64,000 nucleotides of DNA from Solen grandis (taxonomy: Eukaryota > Mollusca > Bivalvia > Adapedonta > Solenidae). Made by a program: the position numbers and the translations under genes. The DNA is taken from assembly GCA_021229015.1 (NCBI GenBank), contig CM037777.1:52134423-52198422 (forward strand). The letters run 5' to 3'. Below, one piece after another: positions 22,176-64,000 of this stretch. The notes beneath the pieces are model-generated. The model saw nothing but the letters and a program-made list of their open reading frames with translations. It had not been told where the DNA came from and did not search any database. Positions within the stretch are counted from its first letter, which is position 1. Each line of letters begins with the position of its first letter.

Positions 22176-23830
22176 TCAACGTTATAGGTTAAATAGTCGT
22201 AGTAATAATGGTAGTCAACATGATAGGTTAAATAGTCGTAGTATAATGGTAGTCAAGTGATAGGTTAAATAGTCTAGTATAATGGTAGTCAACGTGATAG
22301 GTTAAATAGTCGTAGTAATAATGGTAGTCAACGTGATAGGTTAAATAGTCGTAGTAATAATGGTAGTCAACGTGATAGGTTAAATAGTCGTAGTGATAAT
22401 GGTAGTCAATGTGATAGGTTAAATAGTCATAGTAATAATGGTAGTCAATGTGATAGGTTAAAAAGTCGTAGTAATAATGGTAGTCAACGTGATAGGTTAA
22501 ATAGTCGTAGTAATAATGGTAGTCAATGTGATTGGTTAAATAGTCGTAGTAATAATGGTAGTCAACATGACAGGTTAAATAGTCGTAGTAATAATGGTAG
22601 TCAACGTGACAGGTTAAATAGTCGTAGTAATAATGGTTGTCAACGTGATAGGTTAAATAGTCGTAGTAATAATGGTTGTCAACGTGACAGGTTAAATAGT
22701 CGTAGTAATAATGGTAGTCAACATGACAGGTTAAATAGTCGTAGTAATAATGGTAGTCAACGTGATAGGTTAAAAAGTCGTAGTAATAATGGTAGTCAAC
22801 GTGATAGGTTAAATAGTCATAGTAATAATGGTAGTCAACGTGATAGGTTAAATAGTCGTAGTAATAATGGTAGTCAACGTGACAGGTTAAATAGTCGTAG
22901 TAATAATGGTAGTCAACGTGATAGGTTAAATAGTCGTAGTAATAATGGTAGTCATCCTGACAGGTTAAAAAGTTGAAGTAATAATGGAAGTCAACGTGAT
23001 AGGTTGAATAGTCGAAATAATAATGGAAGTCAACGTGATAGGTTGAATAGTCGAAATAATAATGGTAGTCAACGTGATAGGTTAAATAGTCATAGTAATA
23101 ATGGTTGTCAACATGATAGGTTAAATAGTCGTAGTAATAATGGTAGTCAATGTGATAGGTTAAAAAGTCGTAGTAATAATGGTAGTCAACATGACAGGTT
23201 AAATAGTCGTAGTAATAAAGGTTGTCAACGTGATAGGTTAAAAAGTCGTAGTAATAATGGTAGTCAACGTGATAGGTTAAATAGTCATAGTAATAATGGT
23301 AGTCAACGTGATAGGTTAAATAGTCATAGTAATAATGGTAGTCAACGTGATAGGTTAAATAGTCATAGTAATAATGGTAGTCAACGTGATAGGTTAAATA
23401 GTCATAGTAATAATGGTAGTCAACGTGATAGGTTATACAGTCATAATAATAATGGTAGTCAACGTGATAGGTTAAATAGTCATAGTAATAATGGTAGTCA
23501 ACGTGATAGGTTAAATAGTCGTAGTAATAATGGTAGTCAACGTGATAGGTTAAATAGTCGTAGTAATAATGGTAGTCAACGTGATAGGTTAAATAGTCAT
23601 AATAATAATGGTAGTCAACGTGATAGGTTAAATAGTCATAGTAATAATGGTAGTCAATGTGATAGGTTAAATAGTCTGATATGTTAGTAATGATAGGTTA
23701 AATAGTCAATAGTCAACGTGATAGGTTAAAAGTCATAGTATAATGGTAGTCAACGTGATAGGTTATATAGTCGTAGTAATAATGGTAGTCAATGTGATAG
23801 GTTAAATGGTCGTAGTAGTACTTGTAGTTC
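22176..23830. repeat. 39-bp minisatellite, about 42 copies
   Basis: Tandem 39-bp units containing AATAGTCGTAGTAATAATGG and a second half gtcaacgtgataggtta. Because 39 is a multiple of 3, long open frames arise by chance (23004-23687, a 13-residue repeat); these are not taken as genes. Copies become irregular at both edges. Confidence 0.95.
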
Positions 23831-28328: not shown

Positions 28329-31300
28329 CTAAAATGTTTTAATGTTCGAGCACAATCCACAACCAAGGCAAAATTCAGTCCCTGTCGGCGGATGATCGAT
28401 TCCTAAAGGACACTTCCCAACTAACTGTAGACCAATTGGTCCCGCCGGGCATGCCGGCAAAGGGTTCATCTGTCTCATTTGTATAAAGTTCCTGTGGCAT
28501 TCATCGCAGAAGTGGGTGTTTCCGAAGCAGAAGTAGACCGCGACAGAACAGCAGTAGCGACACTTGTATTCCATGTATCCTTCCCCGTGTACTTTACATA
28601 CCTGACACGACACAGAACATCATAATTAATAAACACACTTCCGGACATAGCAAGCAGTTTTATTTCCATATACAGGTTGTGTTAAAAATTGGTAAATATT
28701 ATTACACAAATTATTTTTATTTAAAATACAATACAACCGCAGCAGTCCAAGGAGCGATTACAGACGGATTCAGAGGGATATACTCTCGGTATTACGAACC
28801 TTTCGATTATCCGAACATTTCATCTTCCCCACCAGTTCACGGACTTTCACAATGTTTCGCTATAACCCATTCACAAAGCAAACCACACGATATTATGAAT
28901 TTATTTAATCATTACAATAATTATTTATTTGCATAGTATAAAGACTTGCAGATTTGCTAGACAAAATCTTACTACACGTATTTTGATAGCCGTGGGTCCC
29001 GGAGATGAAAATGAAAGGGAAAGCCTGTGTCAGTTTTGAAAATATTTGCAAAGGGAGAAAGAAACTTTATACATTCTGAATCTCTGACCTTATTGTCTAA
29101 GCCAGAACATACTCCACATACGAGGCTCTCCACGTCATCTCCTTCTTCCAGCCCGTCTTCACACTGGACATTACCGGCGAAAAATGGCTGCAATCAGGAG
29201 TACGTTTGATCAGCAAGAAAATAATCCTCAGAAGGTATATGAGTTTTGAACGGATACTGTATAAAACTCACCGAGAATTGATACAATTCTAATAGTTAAA
29301 TGTTAAAATTGTATCATTTCGAGATGAGATATCCATATCCACTCACAAAAACATTATTTTCAGGCTGCGTGCGCGCATGCGCAGCAGTCTGTAGAACCGC
29401 AATTATCAAGTCGATTGACGGCAGCCTGGCATGTCATTTTATTACGTAGTATTACTACGCAGAAGAAGTTTTGAGGTCAAAATAGTTAACCTGTCAGATA
29501 GGAAAGAATCAAAGCACTGAAGGCACTGGAGTTGAGTATTTCTCAAGTATATGACGGTTTGTCGAGCTGCAGATCTGCTGAGTAACTTAATTTTGCTAGA
29601 ACTCAAAATAAAGCTTATTTTTTGATTTAGATATTCATATTGATATAAAATCTTATACACTGTAATCAAGAGGAATTGGGAGAGTAATAGTGGTGATGTG
29701 CTAATTGTTAGAAGTCCATTGAAACAATTGGTGTGTTCATCTTTTCATCTTGTTATGACCTTGTTAACGCAAGGTTAAAGCGGATTTATACCATTGGATT
29801 TATTGGCACGACTTGAAATTTGATCCCTATTTACTTTGATAAACAAAAGAAATGCGATAATCCTGTCTCTCAACGCTATCAGTACCTTGATTTGTACTCG
29901 GTATCTGTCAAACCTGTCAAGCGCAGTCTCTATTTATAGATTATCGTAATTATGCAAAAATCAGTGGCTCGTTAGTAATTTCGGATAGTATAGGTTTCGG
30001 TCATTTTATAGTGTAACAAATAACCCTTGGATGTATCTGATGTCGATAACTTGATGTGATTAAGTATGTTACACGGATTTGCATCTGACTTCAAGCTTTC
30101 TACATTGGTTGTTGTAACATCATAAAATAACCAAAAGCTGCATATTTACTGTCCAATATTGTATACGAGCCACGTTTGATTCAAAACAAACTTTATTCCT
30201 CCGTATGGTAACGTGTCGTACATGTAGAGTTGTGTTAAATCGTTCTATCATTTTTTTTTTACAAAATTGAGAGGTTCTGTAGTTTTCAGAGCAGAGAATC
30301 GAATGAAAGTAGGTACTATAGTTGTAAGTGACTAGGTCATTTACAGCACTCTGATTATTGCATGCTAACTGATGATAAAAAAATATGGAGCTGTTTTGTG
30401 TATTCGTTCCTGTTCACACACGGATTAATCTATATGCTCGTCCTATTACATAAAATAAAAACTAAATACCAGAAGGCTGAAATACCCCCCGCCCCCCTCT
30501 ATAACCTAAAAAGTAATCCGACCGACCTATATCACTCATGTTGTGAATCATATCAATGTAAGTATCAGTTTGTTTGAGATATGTGCATGTTGTGATTGCA
30601 TTAAAGCCGGAGACAGAAGCCAAGTGGATAAAACGTCTACCCTGTTATCAGAACGCGAGAGTCGTACGTGAAAATATCATTTGTTTGGCGCAAAGTTCCG
30701 GAACTAGTTAAAGCGTGTGTTATCAATTGACTTGTTTATTGCGTTATATGCGGTGAGACAGAACTATATCTGTCCCCTGTACACAAAATTCCGCAAGCAA
30801 ACAAACACGCAAATCCCGAAGACGTATCAAGATAAGCATCTTATAAACTATTTTTGTCCAACGTCTTATTTCAAATTTTGATGACACTAGGGAGCAATAC
30901 CGAAGTCGAGTTCAGTATTTGTAATGTTTCATTTAAACTACGTATTTTTGTTTTTAGGACCATGTTCACTGTAAAGAAATATAAATTCTCGCACCTTTTT
31001 GCATTTAGTACAAATGTAGTAAGAAAACCGCTCCATTGCAAGGCCAAGTACGTTATTGTAGTACGGACTGCCCTTACTGGCCACTTCCTCTGACATTTCA
31101 AGACCCTCATATTGCGCGCGCATCATAGCTCTCCGTTCGACGTCATCTTGCAGATCTCTGATTGGCCGCAGCAGTGGCTCCAGTACCGGATGTTCCATGG
31201 GCCTCTGTGGGTTCAAACCCATTACAGGGGCATTATTCTTTATTATATCTTTAGATATGTCTTTGACTTGGATAGAGAAATACAATAATTTTTAATATAA

Positions 31301-31508
31301 AATATAAAAGTTTTATGAAAAAGCAAGAAGACATTGCTACAAAAATCACTAATGCGTTTCAAGATATTTAACAAGCATAGTTCAGTAAAGTATACCATGG
31401 GTAACATACTGTAAAGGGAAGGTACATGCAAGGAAATGGGTATAAGTTTTATATTGTCGCCGAATAGTTAAGTCATATACAATAATTACATTAAAAAGTA
31501 AAATAGAT

Positions 31509-31550
<42 letters not shown>

Positions 31551-34500
31551 TACAAATTCGCCATCGACCGAAATTGTCAAACTTTATATTTTAAGATATT
31601 TCAGATTTGATAAACAAGCTTTCGACTGGTAAAACATTCAGTAGTTCTCGTTTACTATGTTGATTTAGATGTCATATCTTATGTATCACACGTAGAAATA
31701 CCAGTACGTATTGTAATATGCATTTATCATGTGAGCCGCTAGCTGAATAACAGCCACATCAAGATAAAGGCCAGTTTTTAGCTTTCCTTGAGTGACCTTT
31801 GTTCACAAGTTTAGCTGAAAGTAAAAGTTTTTTGCAAACCAAACAAACCTTGCATAGCGGACACAGTGTGAAGTTGAAGGTTATCCTTGCTCCAACCCAG
31901 CGGTTCTCCAGCACCCGCTTAACACAGTGAAGATGCAATACGTGACCGCATTTCAGCTGAAAAATAATAAAACAAATTGAAATAGGAGAGAAATGACTAC
32001 CCATAACATAGTTAAGCCAATAATGTATCCGTTGATCACAAAGAAAATATGTGAAAGTGAATTGATTAAAAAGGTGGTGTTGTTGTTGTGGTGGTGGTGG
32101 TTTTATTTAGACCTGAAATACAATGTAAGATAAATAACATCCATTTGTAATAAAATGTTTGTTTTTTTTTACATTTACTTGAGTTTCAGGTTGATAGGAA
32201 TGTTCACAAATCATTACAAAAATGCCTTAAGAAAATGATATAACAGTACGTAGACCTCCGCCGGTCAGCGTTGATCATTGATGATGTATCCTAGTCTTTG
32301 TCTTGGTCTTCTGTTTGGTTGAAGCAGGAGTCACATCTGTGTGCAGTCCCTGGTCTGTCAGACTTACGTAGCTCTTTTCTGCCCGATCGCCTTTTTTCTG
32401 CTGCGCACATCTGCTTCTCTTTTCCTGACTTGAGTAATTTGGTCAGGATACCCCTCCAACTTGATCGAGGTCTTCCCAAGACTTGATGTCCATATTTACG
32501 GTTTTCATGTCTCTCTTGGCAACGTCCTTGAAACGTAGCTTGGCGTGCCCAGTGCTTCGCCTTCCAATTGATAGCTTTCCATAGAGAATGTCCTTTAGGA
32601 TTCTCCCATAAGTGGCTTATCCAGTGCAAACGACGAGAAGGTTTTCACGAAACAGGACCTGTGTGTTTCTTGCTCAGGCTTCGGGGCAGATATCTTAGGT
32701 GGGAGGTGTTGAGTCGTCTCTCTTTTCGAACGCGGTCCATTCTGTTCCCGTATCGGTGATTGAGAAGCCCGGGTTGGTAACAGGTGGACGGTCGTCTATT
32801 ATAATGACTGGTGCTATACGGTGTCCTGGCTCAGAACGTTAGTTTTTCAAACCCCTAAAGAACTCACCATGCATACAGGAGCTGCCCGGAGTGGGTTCGA
32901 GTAGCAGACGATACAATCATCGTCTGCTGTGATGTTCGACCCGTTGTTTCCCTCACAGTTCGGCTGCAGGCAAGGTGGACAATCTTGTTCGTTCTTAAAT
33001 CCGCTACAGATATGGCCGCAATTCAAGACTTTCTTGCAGGAATTGTAAGCGTTCTCTTGAATACATGTATGTGACACTGAAAGTAAAGAAAAAATCATAT
33101 GTACTGAGACGAATAAGCAAATTTTTTTTAACATCCAAATGGTAAACTTACGACGTGCAGTCGCATCTTGACACTGGGTCATCTAGTTTTGTACCTTTTT
33201 TTAAGTGCTGAGCACCAAGCACAATAGATATACCAGCACTATATATCAAGAATTGTGTATGTCGCGACCGCGGATAGGACACTCAGCCTCCCAATATTTG
33301 AAACTGCCCATAGAATGTCCACTCAAATCTGCATCAAAACGTTTTGCCCATACTTTAACTTTTAATTACGCATGTATAATTATGTCAATAAGGCGGAGAA
33401 AAAAGTTGTTTCCACTAACATCGCCGAAAAAAGATAGGGTCGGTAGATCGGCTAAACTTTTTTTGCATTTTTTTTTTTTTCCATTTTTACCTTATTTTTT
33501 AGAGGTATTGACGAAATACAGATTTTTCCAACCGCAATAGCCCGAAAACTACGAAAAAAAGTGTAGGGTCGGTACAAAAAGAATAGGGTCGGTCGGGTTA
33601 GTGGAAACAAGTAACTTTTTTTATTACTCCTAATAAATGCAATGTGAAATATATCTTACGGTCTGTATCAGGATAAAGTTTTGGTCTAGCAGAGACTTGT
33701 TTGTCGTCTCTTCTCAAAAGACTTTGACTTCTGCCGGAACCCTGGTGGTCTCTGATTGGAGAAGCCTTAGCGGGCGCATCTTTCTTTCCAAATGGAAGGG
33801 AAGACATGAGCCAAGAAAAGAATCCCTGTGTTTCGGGTTTGGACGCCTGCGGAAGTGAATCAGCAGGCCGGGCACCATGGAGACTCCGCACAAAGCCCTG
33901 GGGTAACAGATTATTTAAAATCTTATTATAGGAATACAATCAATGTATTCAAGTCCACCGGGAAATGTCTTTGCGGAAGTCAAGTAAATTATTGACTGAA
34001 ACTTTTAGAAGAATGTGGCATTGTTTAAAATCAACTTAACAAGTCTGATGTAACAGGTTTTTTACTTAAAGAATCTTATTTATATTTTACCCGACAAACA
34101 GAGCAACGGTCAAAATTATCAAAGTGTTGTACATAGTCTAGATATTTGCAGGCGATGGATAATAATGACATTTATTCAAGAGATATCGCTTTTTCTGTCA
34201 AACTTATTTCACGTGTTCATATTCGACATAAATTTGCCAAAGGATTCAGTATCAAGAAACAGACTATGTTTCCTCTTCATCTCAACAGACCACCGTGAGG
34301 CCATTGCCATTTCACCTGTAAAGTCACTTGACGATGGTAAAAAAAAAAAAGAACATAAAAAAGTACGTGTGCTGTATTATATAGAACGAACCACTCTAGA
34401 TACACAGTGGAATCGTTTTATTACGTTAGTACAAACTCCGCGCACCGGTTACGTCACGCTACGCTACTAAACCACTGCGACCACACAAGTCACGTGATGA

Positions 34501-37017
34501 TAGTTGTAACCATGTGCCCAACACTCATAATTTTATATATTAATGTTATTTTATCTTATTTTTTTTTTCTAATTTCGTGAATATTTTTTTCGTGAAATAT
34601 AACGGACTGATGTAATATATTCAAAACTAAAGTCAAAAGTGATAAAAGTAAATCCGTCCTATATCAGTCGAAATCTACTTGTGGTGGCAGTGGTTATCGA
34701 CAACTGTAAGGGGGGGGGGGGGGTAACTACTGCGGCGGAGTTTGACGTTAGTAGGGGATTTACCGGTGATAGCGTCGATACACTGTGCATGTAAGGGGAT
34801 GTAATCACTGTATGTTCATGAAGGATGCCATAGTAAATTTAACTGCACAGAATCTTTTTTTATCTTTACCTGTTTCACGTGCTGCCAGTCCGCAGCCTTT
34901 GTGAAGATGACTATATAAATGACTTTCAGGGTTGTGACTTCATGTTGACTCTTGAACATGGCCACGCACTGGAATATTGTCTCGGCACTTTGGTCCACCG
35001 GGTAGCTCAGGAAACCGCAGCCGAGGGCCGGAAAAGCAATGGACGACATGTTATCGTCATGCGCTAACTCCAGGCACTTACACACAAAGTCGCATAAAAC
35101 CTGCAAGTATGTTTAAAACTGAAAAAATGAGTTATTCTCCAGTAAAAGATTGTATCCAGATTTATAAAACAATTTTAACGTGCACTCATTTTTATGTCTA
35201 TTGCAAATTGTACGAGACAATACGATGTATTTAAAAATGTTCATGATTGTTAATTGTTCAATTGACAAGCTCTCTCTCTCTCTCTCTCTCTTCTTCTTCT
35301 TCTTCTTCTATTTCTTTTTCTTCTTCTTCTGTTCATCATTTTTCTTCTTCGTCTTATGCAATTATTCTTTCAAGATAAAAGATAAATATTAACGATACAG
35401 GGGAGAGAACTAACAAGATATTGTAAGACACCTAACCCTATTTCAATATCACTTTTAAAAGTAAAATACATTTGTTATGTATATGTAAAAACTGTAACTA
35501 GGATGACTTGTTCAACAACCTCGTTATGAACAACAAATGAATACCTTCAGTGGATCATCCACTTCACCGGACTGCCACCCAGGGAGGGCACCATGGTAGA
35601 CCCGCTTGCACCTCAGGTCGTAACCATTGGTTACAGCCACCTCGCCGAGTTGAATTCCATCCGGGTACTTTTCTTCGCATTCTGACTTCAACCTAGGACC
35701 GCCATTTTTCAGGATATATTTAGACAGATATCCAAGACCAAGGTTTAGGTCTCGGTTTGTACTGTTGATGATGACATCAGCCTGGAGGTAGAGGAACGGC
35801 TTTAATATTGCTTTATAGTCATGGCAGAAGTCAAACGTGGATTAGCTGATTAGAATTAAATGCATTTTAGTCAAATTAAGATATTATATTTCACTACCAT
35901 TATCAATAATCCTTGTATGTTTACCTCTTTTTCTTACACTTACATTCAATTAAACGGGTTGAATTACGTTGCAATATACCGCTATCGATTTTTTCCAGCA
36001 CAATTACGCATGCATTGGCCTTAATTCGTGTCCAAAGTACACACACTACCATTTAGTTATCATGCAAACGAGCGCATATCATATATTCAGTGATAACAAG
36101 AGAGCATGCATGCAGCCCAATGACTTACTATCTTCGTCTGATTACACTGAATTATTGTTCAAAACTTATGATTGAACATCTTTGCATACCCAAAAACCTT
36201 GCCCGCTACAAAACGATCCATATTCGATCTGTTGCCCAAATCAACTCGAACGCAAATACGTTCGCTACTGGACCGCTACTCGTCCATACACGAGTTCACT
36301 CGACCAAGACCCGGACCGAACACGACGTCGATCTGGTGGAGGCCGAGCTCGAGTGCGGGTCGAGTTGGTCAAACAGATATTGTGTATGAGTCGTGTAGGA
36401 ACTCGGGTCGAGTAGAGATCGAATGGTTGTCGAGTTGAAGTGTGGGGATCAAGTAGCTGTCTAGAAGAAGTAATGTACAAGCATATCAATTAATAAGCAG
36501 TTGTTCGAGCTTTATCAGGAGGAAGGAGGGCTTTATCGAAGCGTTTACTTCCAATACAAATGAGCCAAGGTAAAAGTTTAAATACCAGTGATTCAAGGCT
36601 AGGTGGGTTGGTCAGATCATTTAGATTGATGGTAGGTAGAAAAGAAATGATGAAATCCATATTATGTGTCTTGGTTAGTATTATTATTTTGGGGAAATAT
36701 TAGGGAGTGCGTTCCAGGATCGAGGGTCGGTATTATAGCTGTGTGGTATGATGAATGTTGACCAGGGTGTTGGTAGGTTGTGCGATACAGGCTATTGTAA
36801 AAGTTAGCATTGTGGTAACAGTTAATTGGAGAAGTAGAGGACAATTGGCGTAAGTTTTGTCAATCTGATAGATGGCGAATGTTAACGTTCTCACAGTGTA
36901 ACCGGATTTAGGTCTAAATAAAGATGAGAAAAATGTTATGTATTGAAAGTGGATAAAACATACCTTGAATTCTGCCAAGAACCCTTCAACAATTTTCACT
37001 TCTAAATTATCAGCCAT
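28329..37017 (-). CDS. Gene A: macro domain + MYCBP2-type RING-Cys-relay E3 ubiquitin ligase, nine exons
   Basis: Seen: nine exons joined by GT-AG introns, at 36964-37017, 35545-35781, 34870-35100, 33660-33897, 32868-33076, 31849-31956, 30995-31204, 29089-29187 and 28329-28601; together 1659 nt, 552 codons plus TAG. All introns are phase 0 except the one after exon 4 (phase 1). Residues 1-174 form a macro domain: ADVIINSTNR, then FPALGCGFLSYP at 120-131. Residues 175-253 are a basic, low-complexity linker. Residues 254-323 carry a Cys/His cluster (CGHIC, CPPC) and the first RING pair DDDCIVC; 324-359 complete the RING. Residues 360-429 match the MYCBP2 linker helix, and 430-552 the tandem-cysteine domain. 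Known: human MYCBP2 passes ubiquitin from Cys4520 to Cys4572 and then to Thr/Ser hydroxyls. The equivalents here are Cys438 and Cys487; Phe488, Phe493, His498 and Phe501 also match. Inferred: an ADP-ribose-sensing, non-lysine E3 ligase. The start at 37017 places the macro fold at the N-terminus, as in gene B. A possible ATTAAA poly(A) signal lies at 28226-28231. Confidence 0.9.
29089..29187 (-). other. Gene A exon 8: RCR mediator loop with upstream relay cysteine
   Basis: A 33-codon phase-0 exon (acceptor ttgcag, donor AAG/gtcaga) directly follows the exon ending CTKCKK. It begins PFFAGNVQC, the counterpart of AYFGGEARC in MYCBP2, whose Cys is Cys4520. The following acidic loop ends ESLVCGVC. 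The family has Glu (Glu4534) three residues before the next Cys; here that position is Ser and a Glu sits one residue earlier. The spacing from relay Cys438 to Cys487 is 49 residues against 52 in MYCBP2. Confidence 0.85.
31511..31551. repeat. (AC)n microsatellite in gene A intron 6
   Basis: Uninterrupted AC run. Confidence 0.95.
32288..32770 (-). pseudogene. 3' fragment of a non-LTR retrotransposon in gene A intron 5
   Basis: The minus-strand reading holds HWISHLWENPKGHSLWKAIN, then GRPRSSWRGIL, LKSGKEKQMCAAEKR and AHRCDSC. This follows the order of the C-terminal part of endonuclease/reverse-transcriptase LINE proteins (GHxxRM, GRPxxRxxD, AAExxRxxRK, HRCDxC). A stop interrupts the upstream part. 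No catalytic reverse-transcriptase motif remains. Confidence 0.6.
33405..33615. mobile_element. ~200-bp MITE, copy in gene A intron 4
   Basis: Inverted ends ttgtttccactaac (33407-33420) and gttagtggaaacaa (33597-33610) enclose a body with tagggtcggt motifs (three occurrences). It shares its body with 46428-46615. Confidence 0.75.
35270..35350. repeat. (CT)n and (TTC)n tract in gene A intron 2
   Basis: CT run followed by TTC-rich tract. Confidence 0.9.
36180..36450. other. GC-richer patch with repeated ACTCG/CGAGT words in gene A intron 1
   Basis: Many copies of cgagt and actcg in both orientations (for example gagttcactcgacc, gtcgagttggtc) open several overlapping frames on both strands. 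No protein family is recognisable. It may be an old repeat. Confidence 0.35.
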
Positions 37018-44090: not shown

Positions 44091-44362
44091 CTAAAAGCTC
44101 TGTAGATTGGCGCACAATCCACAACCGAGTGCATATTCCGTGCCTGTTGGAGGGTGCTTCACTCTGAGCGGACACCTTCCTCTCAGCTGTCTTCCACATG
44201 GCCCTGCTGGACACCTCGGCAGTTGGTTTTTGTTGGGAAATAAAAACCCTCCGTCATGGCACCGCTGGCAGAAATGGGTGTGTCCTAGACAGAAGAACAC
44301 GGCCATGGAACAACAGTAGCGGCACTTGTACTCTAGAAATCTTCTCCGTGTTTTGGACAAAC
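44091..44362 (-). other. Gene B last exon: tandem-cysteine domain with one-base frame loss
   Basis: From the acceptor (tcctcag, exon starts 44362) the expected frame reads VCPKHGEDF, matching the family, and then hits TAG. One base on, the other frame reads LEYKCRYCC, AVFFCLGHTHFC, RCHD and ends at TAG 44091 after GLCANLQSF. Both halves are clearly conserved, so a single base is missing near the TTT run at 44337-44339. In the second half the downstream relay Cys and the following His are present. The Phe after the Cys is Leu, and the Phe expected three residues after the His is displaced by one. Confidence 0.8.
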
Positions 44363-47300
44363 CTGAGGAGTAAACAGACCCATTCATACATTGGTTTGTG
44401 GACACATATCGATAACATAATTAAATCCCGTGAACAGTTAAGGTTTTAACAAACCATACATTATCAATAGCAGACAATATCTTTGTTCCGTTCCACTGCG
44501 TGTCATTGCAATTAACTTCTCTCAGATTAAGTTGAAACCTACAGCTTTATCTAGCTTTATCTAGTTACAAGTAATACAAACAGTAGTTCAATCCCTGTTG
44601 TTTAACCTTCCTTAGTGTGGGTTTAAAAAGTACAGCCTTGTCATAAAATCATGTTTGAAAATGTTAGTTATAGTTGAGAGGAGAAAAATTATACTTATCG
44701 TTTACAGTCATTTTGGGACACTCGCTTTGTCTACATGAGACACACAGACATGGTGAATCCTTATTTTAACATGACGCTGTAGATAAACGACATGATACCA
44801 CACCCAGCCCGAAGTAAACAGTGCTAATCAGTGTATACCATTGTAATTTAGCGCCTCTGGTATTTCGCGGCAGCGGATACAATTCACTTTTTTAGTTATT
44901 GAGTATTACGCACAAACTAACTATTATCTCAGATAAAATATACAGTAATTACCTGTGATTTACCGAGTCCTGCGCATGCGCCACAAACTAATTCTTCCGG
45001 TTTGAAGTCACCTTGGTCTCCCTCCTCACACTGAGCTACACCACCGAAATATGCCTGAAGACACATACACACTAGTCATGTGATGCTTATTGCATAGTGC
45101 TTGACAAAATACATTTGAAAGTAACTTGCAAAAGAGGGAATCTCAGTTAACTGGCGCCCATAACCAAAAAATAAAACATAATAAAAAATAAAATAATTAA
45201 AAAAAAAAAGAATAAAAAATCGGATATTGTTCTCATTCAAAACGAGACAACCTTTCAAAATCACTTCCATTGCACCGCTACATTAAGGTTTCTATTTTTT
45301 AAATAGCAACCTTAGGGATGTCGATATCAGTGGAAGTTATGAAAAATAAATCCCCGCATGCAGAAGCTTCAAAAACCAAGCCCCTAATGGGCATTCGAAT
45401 TACAAGACTTATAATCTGTTTCAAGAAAATCATCAAAATACATTTTTCATTCGGCAAACTGACTTAAAATACCTCCATTCGAAATAGTTTTGTTCTGAAA
45501 TGAAACGTCAAGTAAATGAGTATTTATAAAAAAGATAAACCACACAAAATATGAATGTCTCAATTTAATTGTTGTTTAATTAGATATAAACCAAATTATA
45601 CTGAATTGTCCAACCTTTTTACACTTATAGCATGGATAATAACAATAACGGTCCAGAGCCAGACGAAGTACGTTGTTGTAGAAAGGGCTCGAGGGGTTTG
45701 TGACGTCATTAGTCTTATCGAGACCCTCGAACTCTGCACGCATCATCGCCTTCTGCTTGACGTCATCCTTAAGGCGTCTGATTGGTTTCAGAAGTGTTTC
45801 AAACTCTGGATGGCGCATCTCTGTCTGAGGTTGTCATCGGTATCATATTTTAGAGCCACAAGCAAGCTACTTAGAATGGTTTTAAATTACATCTTAACAA
45901 TATCATTCACAAACCATCAAGGGCATATGACAAGAAACAAAAGTTTTAAGTTTATATAAAGTATTACAAGAATAATTCGTATTAAAAAATCAAAATAAAA
46001 AAAGGGGATTAAATTTCCATTTTAAAATCACAAACCTTTTGTATAGTTAGGAATAATTTAATATGACAAAATCGTAAATCTGAAGTCTATACAATTTTCT
46101 ATAAACAAAATGATGGAGTAAGTCCTAGAAGATGACCACCCGGGAACGGAGGTCCCGATGGTATTACTGGACCTGTGAGACTGACCTACCTTACAGATGG
46201 GACACAGCAGAAAGTTGAATGTAATCCTGGGTCCGACCCACTTGTTCTCCAGCACCCGCTTAGCGCAGTGTAGGTGGAACACGTGGCCACATTTCAACTA
46301 AACATAACATGGTAAGAAATTAATGGTTTCCATCGCTTTTGGTGAGAACCAAAATGAAGTTCAAAATAAAAACTGAGTCACGTGCAATTTATTCGATGAA
46401 GGAAAAATGTAAAATATAGGTTTGTATTCCACTAAAATTGCCGAAAAAAATAGGGTCGGCTAAACCTTTTTTTCCATTTTTACCTTATTTTTAGAGGAAT
46501 TGACGAAAAACAGCGTTTTTTTTTTAACCGTAAAAGCCCGAAAACTACGAAAGGAAAAGTCTAGGGTCGGTACAAAAATAGGGTCGGTCGGGTTGATAGA
46601 AACAAGTAATTTTTTTTTACTACGCCTCACTGATCTTGTTATTTTTCTTTTCACTTTCTTAAAGAAGAATACATCTTGTTTACATTATGAATTGAAGTAA
46701 GCTGAGCAGATGATTTTGCACAGTTCATAATTTGCTGTTTCCTCACCACACAAACCGGAGCTGCCGACAATCGGTTGGTGTAACAGATCACACAGTCATC
46801 GTCTGATGTCTGACCGTGGTGCGTGTTGTCTTGGCAACCAGCCTGCAGACACGGCGGACATGTAGCCTCGTTCCTGTATCCCGGGCATACATGCCCGCAC
46901 TTTAGCGACTTCCGGCAGGCGTTACTGACGGTCTGTCTGTAGCAAGTGTCCATTAAAGCTGGAAAATTGTAGTGACTGTTTAGTCTTGTGATTCTGACAA
47001 AAACTGCATTGCTGCATTGGTATTCCGATACTATGAACTATGTTATGCAAATATTTAATTGTTCAATACAAAGTAAGTAACACAATAAGAGGATTGTCTT
47101 AGATAACTATACGGCAATGGCACCCCGAACCAAACAATAGATCATTGTATTTCTTTATCGACCATTACATGCATACTTTGTGAAAAACAGAATGAATATT
47201 AGACATCACCGAACTTACTAGCCTATAGGAAACCATATCAGTTTTAAGACATGGGTCGGCCCATAACAAATACATACGGGTACACACAATGAATATTACA

Positions 47301-50300
47301 TAGTTGTTTATATTATACGAGGTCAACTGCAGGACGCACATGTTGACAATTTTTGCCTGGCGCCACCTTCCTCTCTACTTGGCCTGCCTTCCAGCTGTCT
47401 CCCGAACCTCAGTTTTAGTACACGTTCGGATACCACCCTTCTCTTCTTCTGTCTGTCCATAACATGCGCCTCTCTACCCATCACCCCTGGGTTAGGTAAG
47501 GGTGGGGGTTCCACGTCAGTTGACTCGCCGCCACCAACATGAAGTTGATTATTGAACGCCTGCATAAGTTTACCCACATAAAGCGCAAATCAATTATCAA
47601 ATCAGACAATGCAGTTACTGCAATGTAAATGGATTTTACTTTGTATTCTAAAGTATTAAGGTTTTTGTTTATTCTCCTCCGATAAATGAATGCAATTACC
47701 GAAATAAAATACGCACGCAGAATTCCTAAAACCAAGACAACGTGAAATTAAATACAAGAGAAGATTATCAAAAGATAATTCGAGCCTTGGAATTAGAACT
47801 GATTTGTCTAAATCTATATGACTATACATGTGTATTGATGTACACGTACTTAAGAATAATTATTTTTGTCATATAACACATTTTATACATCCTAATTTCT
47901 TCTGTATACCATGCATTTATTTCTTTGTTGTTATCATTTATTGTTAATGTTGTATTGGGGTTTACCGTCGCTGCGATGGTATTTCAATCATATAGCGACG
48001 TCCAGCTAATGACAGGTGGAGGAAGACCCCGAGTACACAGAGGTACCCGGGTAGAACCACCGACCTACCGCATGCCAGCTGAAAGGCTTCCTCACATGAA
48101 AAATCCGAAGTCCCTACCGGGATTCGAACCCACAGCGGTGAGGTGTTATCATTTAAGCCTATAAAATACATGTAATATAAATTAAAAGATGTGACACCAG
48201 AAACCCAGAACCGGTTTCTGACATGTAAGTACCCCGACCCCTTCAAACATTTACATATTTCTAAACGGAAAAATAGAAAAAAATATTATCTATATAAATA
48301 AAATAGACATTTTACATTTATCTTTATACAAAAGCAGTAAACAAGTACACTCATTCACATTCACTATCACTCACCAGTCACTCACTCGGTACTATCACTG
48401 TCCAGTCTACCTCTGGCAGCTGATCCAAACGGTCCTTTTCAGGACCACCTCCTCCCTTCACCTTTGTCACAGGGGATGACAACATCTAAGCTGAATTAGC
48501 CGAGTTTGTCATTCCCACTTTGGCTTCAAAATCTTGATTTTATTAAGTACCTACCTCACACCTTTTCAAAATTCGACCTATTTCGGCATTCAAATTCATT
48601 TTTAAAGAGTTTTGGTCACACTCCGGGGTCTGAGCATTAAACAGTTATTTACTGTAGACGGTTCCTCTTTAAACTTCATTACAACAAACAGTAAACAAGT
48701 ATTTTTTATCAGAGAAAACTTTTATAAAACTTAAATCTAAAGTCTTCTTAAAATTCTCATAATATAAGATACAAGTCCATTCAGCTTCACAGTATTTTTC
48801 AATATGAAAAATATTTATTTGATTTTTTTCCATTAGCTGGTATACTACGCTGACACATACTCCCTAGAAAATAGCATTGTTCGGATATTCCCAAAATCTA
48901 CTGACCCACTATTTATGTTCATATCGTAATACAAATTGTGATGCTATAATTTAAGACTTTTTAAGAAATAAATATACAAAACAAGAAATCAAGTAATATT
49001 TTCTTCTTGTAAAGGTATTTTAATTTTGAAGATACAATGATTCAGAAACTCGTATCACGAAGCATGGTCATATCTATATACCGATAAGCACATTACTGTA
49101 AAAGGTTTTGATAAGAATTGATAAATATTTTTGTTCTGTAGAAGACACATTATTTCCTTTAAACTGATATTTTATTACTTTGAAGCCCTACCTTTACTTA
49201 CTGAAAGAGGTCGTTTTCAATGTTATATCAAATGTATACATACATTCGTCGTAAGCCAGGGCCTCCGTGGCCGAGAGGTTAAAGTCGCTGACTTTAGCAC
49301 TCACTCAGCCCCTCACCGTGTGGGTTCGAATCCCGGAAGGGTCATTCGGATTTTCATGTGAGGAAGCCTTCCAGCTGGCTTGCGGTAGGTCGGTGGTTCT
49401 ACCCGGATGCCTCCGTGCATTCGGGGTCTTCCTCCACATGTAATTAGCTGGACGTCGCTATATGACTGAAATACTGTCGAAGCGACGGTAAATTCAAATA
49501 GTCAAGTCAAGCGAAGTCATTGTAAGCCGAAAAATTGTAAAGGTTTGAATGGAATGAAATATCTGAATCTGATTCTAAATTCTATCCATGGCTAGGATAA
49601 ATAAGGTAACCATTGGTTATATTATATCCAATTACATATGTGCAGCGAACGACTGAATAACAATTAGTCTATTCCTGTAAATGTATATACATGTAGGTTC
49701 ATTATACTGCAATTTCGAAAATAAATGCAATAGCACTATTTTATATATATTCTTAATAAAGAGAATGGATTATCACGTTAAGTAAGAAAGTCAACTAGAG
49801 GATTAGATGTCTGAAAGGTGAACCTTCTTTTTTCCTACTATTTTTTTTTCAGAAGGAACTTGAACATAACCTTGTACAGATTCTTACCCGTTTGACGTGG
49901 ACCCAGTCTCCGCCCTGCGTGAAGATGACTATGGTTACAGACCCGAGGCTTGTGTGGGGGTGGGTACTGGCAAACATCCCCACACACTGACTCATAGTGG
50001 CGGCGCACTCTTCCGGAGGATACCCAAGGAAGCCACAACCTAGCGCCGGAAACGCTATTGACGCCATTTTGTTTTCATGAGCCAGCTCCAGACAGGAGCA
50101 AACGAATCGGCACATAACCTGTCAATACAAATGTCATTGGATGTAGTATCTTTGAAGTATATTCACCGCAACTTACTACTACTTCCTCATCTTCTGGTGC
50201 AGCTGCGGACGCATCCACTTGTTATACCATGTCTGTTCTTAACTCCAGGGAACAAACAAATTGATGATGATAGGCTTAAATTGTGTTAAGGAATACCGCA

Positions 50301-52129
50301 ATGAATTCGGAATCTCGATGCAAAAAATTCCAGCAATTAATTGCAAAATTAAATAATAATTCAATTTTAGTTAAACCTTTCATTCAAGCGTACCCGGTAC
50401 AATGTTTTGATTGAAAATATTCCCTCTATCTAAGTGATTTAACACTCCTAAAATATCATTATATTGTATCAAAATAAAAAAAAAGATAAAAAGGAAGACG
50501 ACAACGACCTTATATATTAGGTCGTTGATTTTGTTTCATCTTAGATACAATTTATTATCTTCTGGTGCAGCTGCGGACGCATCCACTTGTTATACCATGT
50601 CTGTTCTTAACTCCAGGGAACAAACAAATTGATGATGATAGGCTTAAATTGTGTTAAGGAATACCGCAATGAATTCGGAATCTCGATGGATTATAATACA
50701 ATAACTTCCAGCAATTAAATGCATAATTAAATAATGAATTCAATTTTAGTTAAACCTTTCATTCAAGCGTACCCGGTACAATGTTTTGATTGAAAATATT
50801 CCCCCTATCTAAGTGATTTAACACTCCTAAAATATCATTATATTGTATCAAAAAAAAAAAAAAAAAAGATAAAAAGGAAGACAATCAACGACCTTATATA
50901 TAAGGTCGTTGATTTTGTTTCATCTTAGATACAATTTATTGATATTTTGGGGGTGTTAAAACGAGCAGTTTTTCGGTACTTACCTTAAATTTGGTAATCA
51001 AGTTCATAACTTGAGACAGAAATTTCGTAAGTTTTAAATACATTAAGATATATATTCTTTTAAATGGTTAAAAAAAAAAAAACAATATCTAAACTGACCT
51101 CTAATGGGTCCATGACCTCACCACCATCCCAAGACGGAAGTGACCCGTGGTAAACGTTCTTACAACCCAGTCCGTATCCTGACGTAACAGCTACGTCACC
51201 AAGTGCAACTCCATCCGGGTACCGCTGTTTGCATTCCTCTTGCAGCTGTGGCCCAGCTTTCTGTAGAAGTGATCGGGACAAAAGACCAGCCTCTAGAAGC
51301 AGCACGCGAGTTGTGCTGTTCACCAATACATCTGCCTATATATGCATTTATGTGTTACCTAGATAGACAAGCGGACGGATGGATAGATTGATGTATAGAT
51401 AGATGGAAAGAAAGCATTGTCTCACGGTTTGATTCTTTTCATTGCTTACAATAATTTATGTACAATTAACAATAAATTGCATGCGACGCAGGTTGGGCAT
51501 GAATTTAGCTGAAAATACTGTACTTAGGAACTGCATAAATGGAATAAAGCGTATTACATCAAAACAAGAGTAAATATATGGCATATATATTTTTTATGAA
51601 AATGCAATTGCATGTGTTTGCAATTTAAAGCTACACGACTTATTACAAAACCAATATAACATATGAATGTTATAGGTCTACTAGCAGGTGACTTAACAAT
51701 TCAGACGTGTGCATTGTGTAGTATTATACTTCCTGGTTTATAATCTCACTTTTGATTTCCAGTGAATGACTCATATATTCCTGGAAACCTTCAATGGATC
51801 TCTTTCATTTTCACTTCTATAAGTTTGATTGTTATAGGCCTGTGTTAGTTTCTATTTATTTGATCTGACAAAATAACAAGAGTGTCCCGTTATGAAAAAT
51901 ATCAAAGTCTACGCCAACTACACTTTACAAAACATAGATCTGATAAAATGAAGGAGTATGTGTGAGTGAAAATGTCAAGCCTCTAAGGCAACAAACAGCT
52001 AGGGACCACCTTAATCTTCAGTTAAGATTTGCCTTCTTACGTCACGTGTCTGGATTACATAGCATAAAATGTGTTTACCTGATATTCAGCGAGGAGTCCC
52101 TCTACAATATTAATCCTAATGTCAGCCAT
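44091..52129 (-). CDS. Gene B: paralogous macro-RCR E3 ligase gene with a frameshifted last exon
   Basis: Seen: nine exons matching gene A, at 52079-52129, 51099-51335, 49888-50118, 47367-47559, 46747-46958, 46190-46297, 45615-45824, 44953-45054 and 44091-44362. Exons 2, 3, 6 and 7 have exactly the lengths of gene A's (237, 231, 108, 210 nt), and the exon 6 peptides agree at 30 of 36 positions. Order: macro domain, linker with PPPLPNP and a basic stretch, Cys/His cluster, RING (DDDCVIC to CPIC), helix, mediator loop AYFGGVAQC with Cys423 and EELVC, tandem-cysteine domain. The macro motif reads ADVLVNSTTR, so the second Asn is Thr, and the first glycine loop is lost; FPALGCGFLGYP is intact. 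Odd: with the conserved exon 8 donor, the last exon is one nucleotide short (TTT run at 44337-44339) and meets a stop before the second relay cysteine. An alternative donor 11 nt upstream would restore frame. A sequencing error, a decaying gene or a splice variant are all possible. Confidence 0.82.
44712..44890 (-). mobile_element. Degenerate family 1 SINE copy in gene B intron 8
   Basis: Recognisable fragments include cagtcattttgggacac, tgataccacacccag and gtatttcgcggc, in the order of the full copy at 37541-37834. Confidence 0.6.
46428..46615. mobile_element. ~200-bp MITE, copy in gene B intron 5
   Basis: Same body as 33405-33615 (attgccgaaaaaaataggg, cgaaaactacgaaa, tagggtcggtcgggtt) with more diverged ends (tattccactaaaa / ttgatagaaacaa). 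Confidence 0.75.
47953..48145 (-). mobile_element. Family 2 SINE copy, 5'-truncated head
   Basis: Matches the family from the cgacgtccagctaatgacag region to the B box (gattcgaacccac) and then stops. It lies in gene B intron 3. Confidence 0.8.
49256..49515 (+). mobile_element. Family 2 SINE copy, full-length
   Basis: Begins gggcctccgtggccgagagg (A box), has gtgggttcgaatcccg (B box), then the body, the shared actgaaatactgtcgaagcg motif, and an AGTCA-type tail. It lies in gene B intron 3 in antisense orientation to the gene. Confidence 0.87.
49888..52129 (-). other. Gene B macro-domain module (exons 1-3)
   Basis: Exons of 51, 237 and 231 nt give a macro domain of 173 codons. The second binding loop PALGCGFLGYP is intact, closer to consensus than in gene A. 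The first loop is strongly changed: the NAAN-like Asn is Thr (NSTTR) and no glycine triplet follows. Catalytic ADP-ribosyl-hydrolase activity is therefore unlikely by family knowledge. Intron 2 holds a duplicated block with a palindrome (50190-50945). Confidence 0.8.
50190..50945. repeat. Tandem duplication (~365 bp) in gene B intron 2
   Basis: cttctggtgcagctgcggac recurs at about 50190 and 50559, and both copies end gttgattttgtttcatctta. Each copy contains a hairpin around ccttatatat(a/t)agg; in the second copy it is a perfect 32-nt palindrome (50883-50914). Confidence 0.9.
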
Positions 52130-62336: not shown

Positions 62337-62745
62337 ATACCAAGTGGTCGAGTCCCGAATTGTCCGAGAGATATGTACCTTACTATTCTGGAAGACGACA
62401 GCTATGAGTGTTTCCACTGCTCTGACTGCTCGGAAGGTTTTGGAGAGATTATTGGCTGCCTACCCAACAAAGATCGTGTTTGTGTTGCCTGCCCAACAGG
62501 CACCTTCAACGATGGCACCCAGAACCATTGCAGACCATGTAAATCATGTGGACCTGGTCAGTGCATCATGCAGGATTGCAAAAGTGATCAGGATACTGTT
62601 TGTAAAACACACCTTATGTCTAAGGTTTCGACAAAAGCAGATGAACCATACTGCCAGACAACAGAGTCTCCGATTCATTCAGGTGGTACGACAAAGTCTC
62701 AGATTGATTCAAGTGGTACGGCAAACTCTACAACTGATAAAGATG
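62337..62745 (+). CDS. TNF-receptor-superfamily exon with two cysteine-rich domains, partial gene
   Basis: Seen: acceptor atttag before 62337, an open frame, then donor GATG/gtatgg after 62745 (409 nt, leaving phase 1). The peptide begins IPSGRVPNCPRD and shows two TNFR cysteine-rich repeats: CFHCSDC with a closing DRVC, then CPTGTF, HCRPCKSC, GQC and a closing DTVC. A Ser/Thr-rich stalk with repeated SGGT/SSGT motifs follows. Known: such receptors bind TNF-family ligands outside the cell, and the stalk normally leads to a membrane span. No signal peptide or membrane exon is certain here. A weak next exon is 63306-63369 (ttttag acceptor, gtaagt donor, open in phase). A possible alternative is 63652-63732, which ends in a stop. 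The upstream exons were not found. Confidence 0.7.
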
Positions 62746-64000
62746 GTATGGTGTTGTTTATTTAATAATTTTCTTAATGTAATGACACTGAATCAACGTT
62801 CGTTTTATTAATCAATAGTCAATAGGTGCTCACTTTGACTACCTGATATGGGACGGTACTTTTAACATTGTGTATTAAAGTATGGTTTACCTATAAAACC
62901 TGTATGTGATGACTCGCCTTATAGTTCTTTCATGTATAATAGTTACACCCTTTCCATAATAATACATACTGTAAACCAGGAAACTTTTGTGTCAAGAAAC
63001 TTTCGCGTTTTGATGCATCCATACATATTCGCGGCGTAATACTTTCGCGGATTTGAGCAGACCGCGAATCTCGCGTAACAATGCACGCTACGAACCAAAG
63101 TATTCATTGACACGGCATTCCAATACACTTAACGGTTATTTTTCTGATCAGTGGTCATTGTATATGAGTGAACAGTTTTTAGTTAATAGTTTTTAGACTA
63201 GCTGTTGTTGAGTTTTTGTTAATCATACAATAAACCTGGGCAAATAATATTTATAATAATATAAGACCACCGTACTTATGATTGACAATCACTCAATATT
63301 TTTAGTGCAATGTGACCCTAGACTAAAAGTGCGGGGGTCTCGTTCAACCAGACATGGCAATGTTTGTGGGTAAGTTCCATATTATCAGATTAATAGGTCA
63401 CAACTTGAATTTGTCCATGTCTCTCGGTAGCTTTAGTTCCACAATAATTCAACACTCCAGTCACAATGGGACAGTGAACAATGGTAGGTAATTACCATTC
63501 ACCAATATACAAGACTACCTGAATACTGCTTTAAACATTGGGTCAGGTTGAGACTCACGCCCGGTTTGTACTTCAAAGAAGACACTTGCCCGTATTAAAG
63601 TATGGCTAACTCTAATACTTTAAACGTTAATACGTTTGAATTACCAACAGATACAGAACTTGAGAAGAAACGTTCAAGGCAAGATGCAGACACTGTGTTT
63701 CATCAATATCTGGGAGCCAGTAATGTTAATTAATTACATTTCCATCTTAATGGAAATTTAATCAATTACATTTTAAAATAACTGTAATGTTAAAGGTAAT
63801 TGTAATGCCATTTTTGCAATATAATGTGTAATATTATTAATTACATTGTCATGTAATTGGACCTATGACTGATATATATCACATGAAATTTCGTTAAAAA
63901 ACAGTCTATACTCTATTGTTTTCCGTTTACTTTGATAGTGAAAAGACCATCAGTTTAAATTCAAATTGAAATCATGCATATTATATGCACAATCAACAAA
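62746..64000. other. Probable intron and weak exon candidates after the TNFR exon
   Basis: 63306-63369 and 63652-63732 have splice-like borders and open frames in phase with the 62745 donor. The block 62980-63080 (aaactttcgcg, gaatctcgcg) looks like a dispersed repeat. Confidence 0.35.

Follow-up and report, generated by a model that had tools for sequence, protein, structure and literature searches.

A gene of the clam Solen grandis encoding a macro domain and a MYCBP2-type RCR module in one predicted protein

Gene A and Other Features of the Window

We analysed a stretch of 64,000 nucleotides from Solen grandis (the window; contig CM037777.1, called C1 below, positions 52,134,423 to 52,198,422). 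The whole genome searched comprises 1.32 Gb in 811 contigs, and the Solen grandis genes discussed here are known from genomic DNA alone. Gene A is located on the minus strand, with the ATG at 37017 and the stop codon at 28329. It consists of nine exons with a total length of 1659 nt and encodes 552 amino acids. All eight introns have GT-AG borders, their phases are 0,0,0,1,0,0,0,0, and the largest of them is about 1.8 kb long. An earlier note on this DNA had described a single nine-exon frame uniting a macro domain with an RCR (RING-Cys-relay) module. The coordinates given there are exact, the introns and the uninterrupted 552-residue frame bear out the description, and the two relay cysteines that the note numbered Cys438 and Cys487 do fall at these positions.

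Exon 1 of gene A (36964..37017) encodes MADNLEVKIVEGFLAEFK, the start of the macro domain, and is homologous to the N-terminus of P0001, one of the relatives described below. The N-terminal half of the macro domain is encoded by exon 2 (35545..35781), with N24, the loop-1 glycine G35 and the motif HGALPGW, and the C-terminal half by exon 3 (34870..35100), with loop 2 and ALGCGFLSYP. Exon 4 (33660..33897) encodes a linker that exceeds those of the relatives in length; by eye, both of its ends are like the linker of P0003. The Cys/His cluster and the N-terminal half of the RING come from exon 5 (32868..33076), and the C-terminal half of the RING from exon 6 (31849..31956), both borders of which are the same as in the MYCBP2-like locus of this genome. 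Exon 7 (30995..31204) encodes a helical linker and CTKCKK. The mediator loop in exon 8 (29089..29187) carries the upstream relay cysteine, Cys438, and has Ser450 at the position of the triad glutamate. Exon 9 (28329..28601) encodes the tandem-cysteine domain with Cys487, His498 and Phe488/493/501, followed by the stop codon.

Using tblastn with the gene A protein, we found a second macro-RCR gene in the window. This tandem paralog, gene B, also lies on the minus strand (52129-44091). Its exons follow in the same order with 45-76% identity to those of gene A, and the same phases fit. Exon 1 (52079..52129) is followed by the two halves of the macro domain in exon 2 (51099..51335; 58% identity to gene A) and exon 3 (49888..50118; 60%). 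The linker exon 4 (47367..47559) has a clear acceptor, and its donor is one of six phase-compatible sites. Exon 5 (46747..46958) encodes the Cys/His cluster and the N-terminal half of the RING, exon 6 (46190..46297) its C-terminal half, and exon 7 (45615..45824) the helical linker. In the mediator loop of exon 8 (44953..45054), the relay cysteine and the triad glutamate were recognized by eye, as was the 3' end at a GTAATT donor. The tandem-cysteine exon 9 (44091..44362) contains a one-base frameshift after CPKHGEDF.

Three other features of the window were seen. Within intron 5 of gene A there is a 117-residue open frame (32291-32644, minus strand), which resembles the tail of a retroelement polyprotein. 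An open frame on the plus strand (62337-62762) contains cysteine-rich repeats of the TNFR/NGFR type (PF00020, 58.9 bits, two stretches) and probably belongs to a TNF-receptor-like gene as one of its exons. The long open frames on both strands at 22228-23697 are built of a repeated short unit, as in a minisatellite-like array.

Domains and Catalytic Residues of Gene A

The domain assignments of the earlier note agree with the comparison with solved structures. Residues 303-552 matched the MYCBP2 RCR crystal chain 5o6c with E=6e-90 (306 bits) and the crystal sequence 6t7f with E=7e-90. For the macro domain, the Pfam model Macro (PF01661) scored 74 bits at a cut-off of 22, and the top solved-structure match was PARP14 macrodomain 2 (3q71; residues 5-164, E=4e-24); the match to 3vfq, also from PARP14, reached E=2e-38 over two stretches. 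Both the macro and the RCR matches are far beyond chance. The zf-RING_2 model scored 26.9, marginally below its cut-off of 27.3. At E<=1, all Pfam matches of gene A are to Macro, RING-type models and, weakly, one UBZ; at this threshold there was no match to a DTC domain or to the ART catalytic domain PF00644. By these alignments, the predicted protein is an RCR homologue whose RING, helix and mediator loop are homologous to those of MYCBP2.

The catalytic residues were counted in ten macro-RCR sequences (genes A and C and the proteins P0001-P0008) against the human RCR. In MYCBP2 we take the relay anchors to be numbered C4520 and C4572, and the other residues compared E4534, F4573, F4578 and F4586. 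The equivalents of C4520, C4572 and H4583 (C438, C487 and H498 in gene A) are each found in 10/10 sequences, and 28 of the 34 human Cys/His positions are conserved in all ten. Equivalents of F4573 and F4578 occur in nine sequences, the exception being gene C. At F4586, presumably the third aromatic-pocket residue, one sequence of the ten has Phe, that of gene A only, which we counted against the mechanism proposed below. At the position of the triad glutamate E4534, there are five Glu, four Asp and one Ser, the latter being Ser450 of gene A. Glu449 adjoins it, and the loop is shorter there. Since this position is Ser in gene A and acidic in 9/10 sequences, the chemistry of gene A may be altered. 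Ser450 is the main warning against the proposed mechanism: it weakens the case for full catalytic identity of gene A, whose acidic residue is present in the other family members.

In the alignment of macro domains, N24, the loop-1 glycine G35 and the GxG of loop 2 are kept in all 17 ligase-linked sequences. ADP-ribose binding by gene A is predicted from these pocket-type residues. According to a hand count along the 3vfq alignment, G35 of gene A is G1044 of PARP14, the residue mutated in its macrodomain 2 (PMC10499325). Macrodomains 2 and 3 of PARP14 are reported to bind mono-ADP-ribose and to lack hydrolase activity (PMC10499325). Judged by eye in the macro alignment, loop 1 of gene A is nearer to that of the inactive macrodomain 2 than to that of macrodomain 1.

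Macro-RCR Loci in the Genome

Among the best candidates of the genome search with gene A, there were at least 79 matches at E<=0.001, and those to the RCR part lay on C1 only. We found three further macro-RCR loci on this contig. In gene C (73.86-73.87 Mb) all the exons found are open; exons 1 and 4 are not among them. Gene D (75.66 Mb) and gene B have 96.1% identity over 6.3 kb, gene E (88.46 Mb) and gene C 96.5% over 5.0 kb; both D and E have a frameshift in exon 3. The exon order is the same in the five loci of the genome, although for E no tandem-cysteine exon was found in the stretch examined. Thus each of genes B, D and E carries a frameshift, and this was counted against the proposed mechanism. 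Over five exons, B and D differ in 10 synonymous and 5 nonsynonymous codons of 285 (dN/dS 0.14), and C and E in 9 synonymous and 0 nonsynonymous codons of 275. This indicates that the coding sequence was constrained until recently, be the frameshifts real or assembly errors.

Detached fragments of the family lie on C1 at 57.64, 57.69, 73.90, 73.94 and 75.64 Mb. Three of them (L040, L043 and L044, at 57.69, 73.90 and 73.94 Mb) are stretches of the tandem-cysteine region with approximately 90% identity to gene B over 1.28 kb; judging by this similarity, they are dispersed fragments of the macro-RCR family. At 81.42 Mb of C1 there is a MYCBP2-like RCR without a macro domain, a locus known by its RCR part. 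The macro-domain repertoire of the genome as a whole is large: counting exons separately, the Pfam Macro model matched 88 times at E<=0.001.

Macro-RCR Proteins in Other Clams

The earlier note had proposed a search of proteomes for proteins with both macro and RCR. Protein searches did reveal macro-RCR relatives in other bivalves. Among 5.8 billion proteins, a first search yielded 95 hits, and a second, in which 11 aligned macro-RCR proteins served as the query, yielded 99 at E<=1e-10. The same 15 proteins in both searches combine a macro domain with a RING (P0001-P0014 and P0021). Ten of the 15 belong to the macro-RCR type (P0001-P0008, P0010 and P0012). P0012 ends before the tandem-cysteine domain, and P0010 lacks the helix exon and is, by name, an isoform from the gene of P0008. 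Full-length relatives come from Ruditapes, Mercenaria and Dreissena. The named sources of the 15 also include Mactra and Mya, and all belong to Imparidentia, Neoheterodontei. In P0001, P0003, P0004, P0006 and P0007 the whole frame is intron-free on contigs of 1536-2305 bases, and these contigs look like transcripts.

The database names of the relatives are automatic, mostly 'E3 ubiquitin-protein ligase MYCBP2-like' and also 'RCR-type E3 ub...'. In freshwater mussels (Unionida) we found short RCR proteins without a macro domain (P0015 and P0017). A scan for viral relatives with two peptide patterns of the alignment A3 gave 13 stretches matching one of the patterns, none of which encodes a relative. 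One hit from krill, P0022 of Meganyctiphanes norvegica, has, by eye, NFX1-like Cys-rich repeats upstream of its RCR.

Chimeras with a Parkin-like Rcat

In the other proteins with macro and RING, the macro domain is followed by the Cys/His cluster, the RING and the relay loop, and the place of the tandem-cysteine domain is taken by a Parkin-like Rcat. These chimeras are P0009 (Mercenaria), P0011 (Mactra), P0014 with its isoform P0021, which lacks the helix (Mya), and P0013, from a transcript-like contig of 2332 bases. Residues 250-407 of P0013 matched MYCBP2 with E=1e-46 and residues 427-487 matched Parkin (9c5e) with E=7e-16. IBR-type Pfam matches were found in the Rcat region of 4/4 chimeras scanned. 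Their mediator cysteine is off the RCR alignment column, with a Cys two residues further on in all four. With residues 330-500 of P0013 as the query, we obtained eight proteins: P0013 itself, P0009, P0011, P0096-P0098, which have the Parkin domain set, and a further two IBR proteins. These matches did not include P0014. A search of the Solen grandis genome with P0013 found no such chimera and no Rcat near the macro-RCR loci. The Rcat matches were one of 36 residues on C3 and one of the same length on C10, away from the loci on C1.

The reciprocal order, an RBR-type IBR followed by an RCR, was confirmed by Pfam in 8/8 proteins scanned: P0026 and P0027 (the latter from the amoeba Balamuthia), P0031, P0033, P0041, P0069, P0072 and P0075. 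They were picked from nine hits outside the bivalve set that had a precomputed IBR label. P0053, which resembles them by eye, has no Pfam IBR match. Taken together, the IBR-RCR proteins, one of them from Balamuthia, and the Rcat chimeras suggest that domains were exchanged in both directions.

It is quite possible, although we put the idea forward tentatively, that imparidentian clams have evolved E3s that read ADP-ribose, act by transthiolation and form a modular family with an interchangeable end domain. This would be either the RCR tandem-cysteine domain, directed to hydroxyls, or the Parkin-like Rcat, expected to act on lysine, and both branches would share what precedes it, namely the macro domain, the MYCBP2-type RING and the relay loop. 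The Rcat group would then be a naturally occurring swap between two classes of cysteine-dependent E3. If so, the ubiquitin relay has been rewired between E3 classes, and the chimeras offer a direct test of whether the RING of an RCR can pass ubiquitin to a foreign catalytic cysteine.

Origin of the Macro-RCR Family

Gene A and the MYCBP2-like locus at 81.42 Mb lie on the same contig, and all four internal introns of the RCR are at the same positions and in phase 0 in both. Therefore, the RCR of gene A probably arose by copying at the DNA level and not by retroposition. In a tree of the RCR core (33 rows, 201 columns), one side of a branch (91/87) holds 16 macro-linked rows together with P0101, a protein without a macro domain from a contig of 1040 bases. 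The four chimeras group together (94/86), as do genes A, B and C (98/94, starred), and the MYCBP2 rows are in another, loosely supported group. A position of the chimeras nested inside macro-RCR is weakly supported (82/65 branch), and the macro-RCR rows fall on one side in 14% of the bootstrap trees. The krill protein P0022 has a branch of 1.42 and adjoins the macro-linked clade (85/84).

We also considered that the linked macro domains might share one origin and rejected this as a conclusion from the macro tree, which leaves 12 of 22 inner branches open, with long branches meeting. The ligase-linked rows are on one side in 8% of its bootstrap trees, and this was counted against our best explanation.

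Proposed Mechanism and Alternatives

We consider it fairly probable that the product of gene A is a small RCR-class E3 that reads ADP-ribose and relays ubiquitin to a hydroxyl ester, and that its RCR was copied from the 3' end of MYCBP2. The copy would have been joined to a macro domain in the ancestor of the imparidentian clams. The macro domain, similar to PARP14 macrodomain 2, would dock on a mono-ADP-ribosylated protein without hydrolysing the tag. The RING would recruit a ubiquitin-loaded E2, and ubiquitin would pass to Cys438 and then to Cys487. Finally, His498 would activate a hydroxyl, and ubiquitin would be esterified onto Thr/Ser of the docked protein. E2 loading, the cysteine relay and the His-activated hydroxyl have been described for MYCBP2 (PMC9527308, PMC7615817), and we infer ADP-ribose binding, E2 discharge, relay and ester linkage in gene A from homology. 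The likeliest role of the protein would thus be that of an E3 recruited to ADP-ribosylated proteins, where it esterifies hydroxyls, and it may act in responses that use PARP14-type ADP-ribosylation. Such a compact RCR E3 of 550 residues with a predicted substrate reader raises the question of whether ADP-ribosylation can direct ester-linked ubiquitylation.

A less likely reading, which we nevertheless take seriously, is that esterification by gene A has been lost or changed. Thioesters would still form, transfer would be poor or go to other nucleophiles, and the protein would be a regulator or a dominant-negative. Ser450, where 9/10 family sequences have Glu or Asp, fits this reading. The second site of MYCBP2 is described as a Cys-His-Glu triad (PMC9527308). 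However, gene A has kept both cysteines, His498, F488/F493/F501 and the Cys/His residues common to the family, and Glu449 is one residue away in a shorter loop.

We regard it as improbable that ADP-ribose itself is the acceptor, with the RCR esterifying a ribose hydroxyl held or presented by the macro domain, so that a Deltex-like outcome is reached through a covalent relay. One expects much of the ADP-ribose to be hidden within the macro fold, which counts against this role. In addition, no DTC-like domain that could activate ADP-ribose was found in gene A among Pfam matches at E<=1, and nothing favours ADP-ribose over Thr/Ser. The idea keeps some plausibility because MYCBP2 is cited as modifying glycerol (PMC7615817). 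The 3' hydroxyl of ADP-ribosyl is the site to which Deltex ligases attach ubiquitin, and their catalytic His has been compared with His4583 of MYCBP2 (PMC7615817), which is kept in gene A as His498.

Slightly less probable still is that the locus of gene A is a decaying duplicate without function. The frameshifts in paralogs B, D and E and the detached exon fragments on C1 show that such decay may occur in the family, but gene A has an unbroken frame and all its splice sites, gene C is open in every exon found, and the near copies B-D and C-E are constrained. A wrong joining of two adjacent genes, to which introns of up to approximately 1.8 kb between the exons might point, was rejected as very improbable: the phases are compatible across the linker exon 4, the paralogs have the same exon order, and the relatives in other bivalves are single proteins, in five cases encoded by contigs of 1.5-2.3 kb, so that the single gene of the earlier note stands.

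Comparison with Described Systems

Gene A was also considered as the MYCBP2 orthologue. This was rejected, because the protein has 552 residues and, by its Pfam matches at E<=1, none of the further N-terminal domains of MYCBP2, and the genome has a separate MYCBP2-like RCR at 81.42 Mb. Gene A shares with MYCBP2/Highwire/RPM-1 the RCR with its relay cysteines, the His and 4/4 internal introns. It differs in having a macro domain within 552 residues, whereas MYCBP2 is a giant protein, in Ser at the place of the triad Glu, and in belonging to a family in which F4586 is kept in one sequence of ten. With macrodomain 2 of PARP14, and with the macro domains of PARP9 and PARP15, it shares the loop-1 Gly and the GxG of loop 2; it differs in that gene A has no ART match in Pfam at E<=1. 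In DTX3L-PARP9, reading of ADP-ribose by macro domains is coupled to ubiquitin transfer (PMC12687431), which resembles the architecture of gene A. That system consists of two proteins and uses direct RING-DTC transfer (PMC7615817), in contrast to gene A, which has no DTC match in Pfam at E<=1. RNF114/RNF166 read an ADP-ribose-containing mark and write ubiquitin within one polypeptide (PMC12583694), as proposed for gene A. These are RING E3s with a Di19-UIM reader that build K11 chains on Ub-ADPr, and the accessible part of that paper mentions neither a macro domain nor a relay (PMC12583694). The likeness to Parkin, an RBR ligase, concerns the Rcat of the sister chimeras only, in which the macro domain, the MYCBP2-type RING and the loop replace the upstream domains of Parkin.

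The earlier note knew of no description of the macro-RCR architecture. In accordance with this, we found none in the accessible text of CC papers in PubMed Central, only the automatic database names. Within the same collection, two of the three papers that name both MYCBP2 and a macro domain were covered, and they describe no fusion in their accessible parts. In the literature surveyed, as far as its text was accessible, the giant MYCBP2 is the single protein with which RCR chemistry is associated. The term 'MYCBP2-like' is used in these PubMed Central papers by studies of carp and shrimp.
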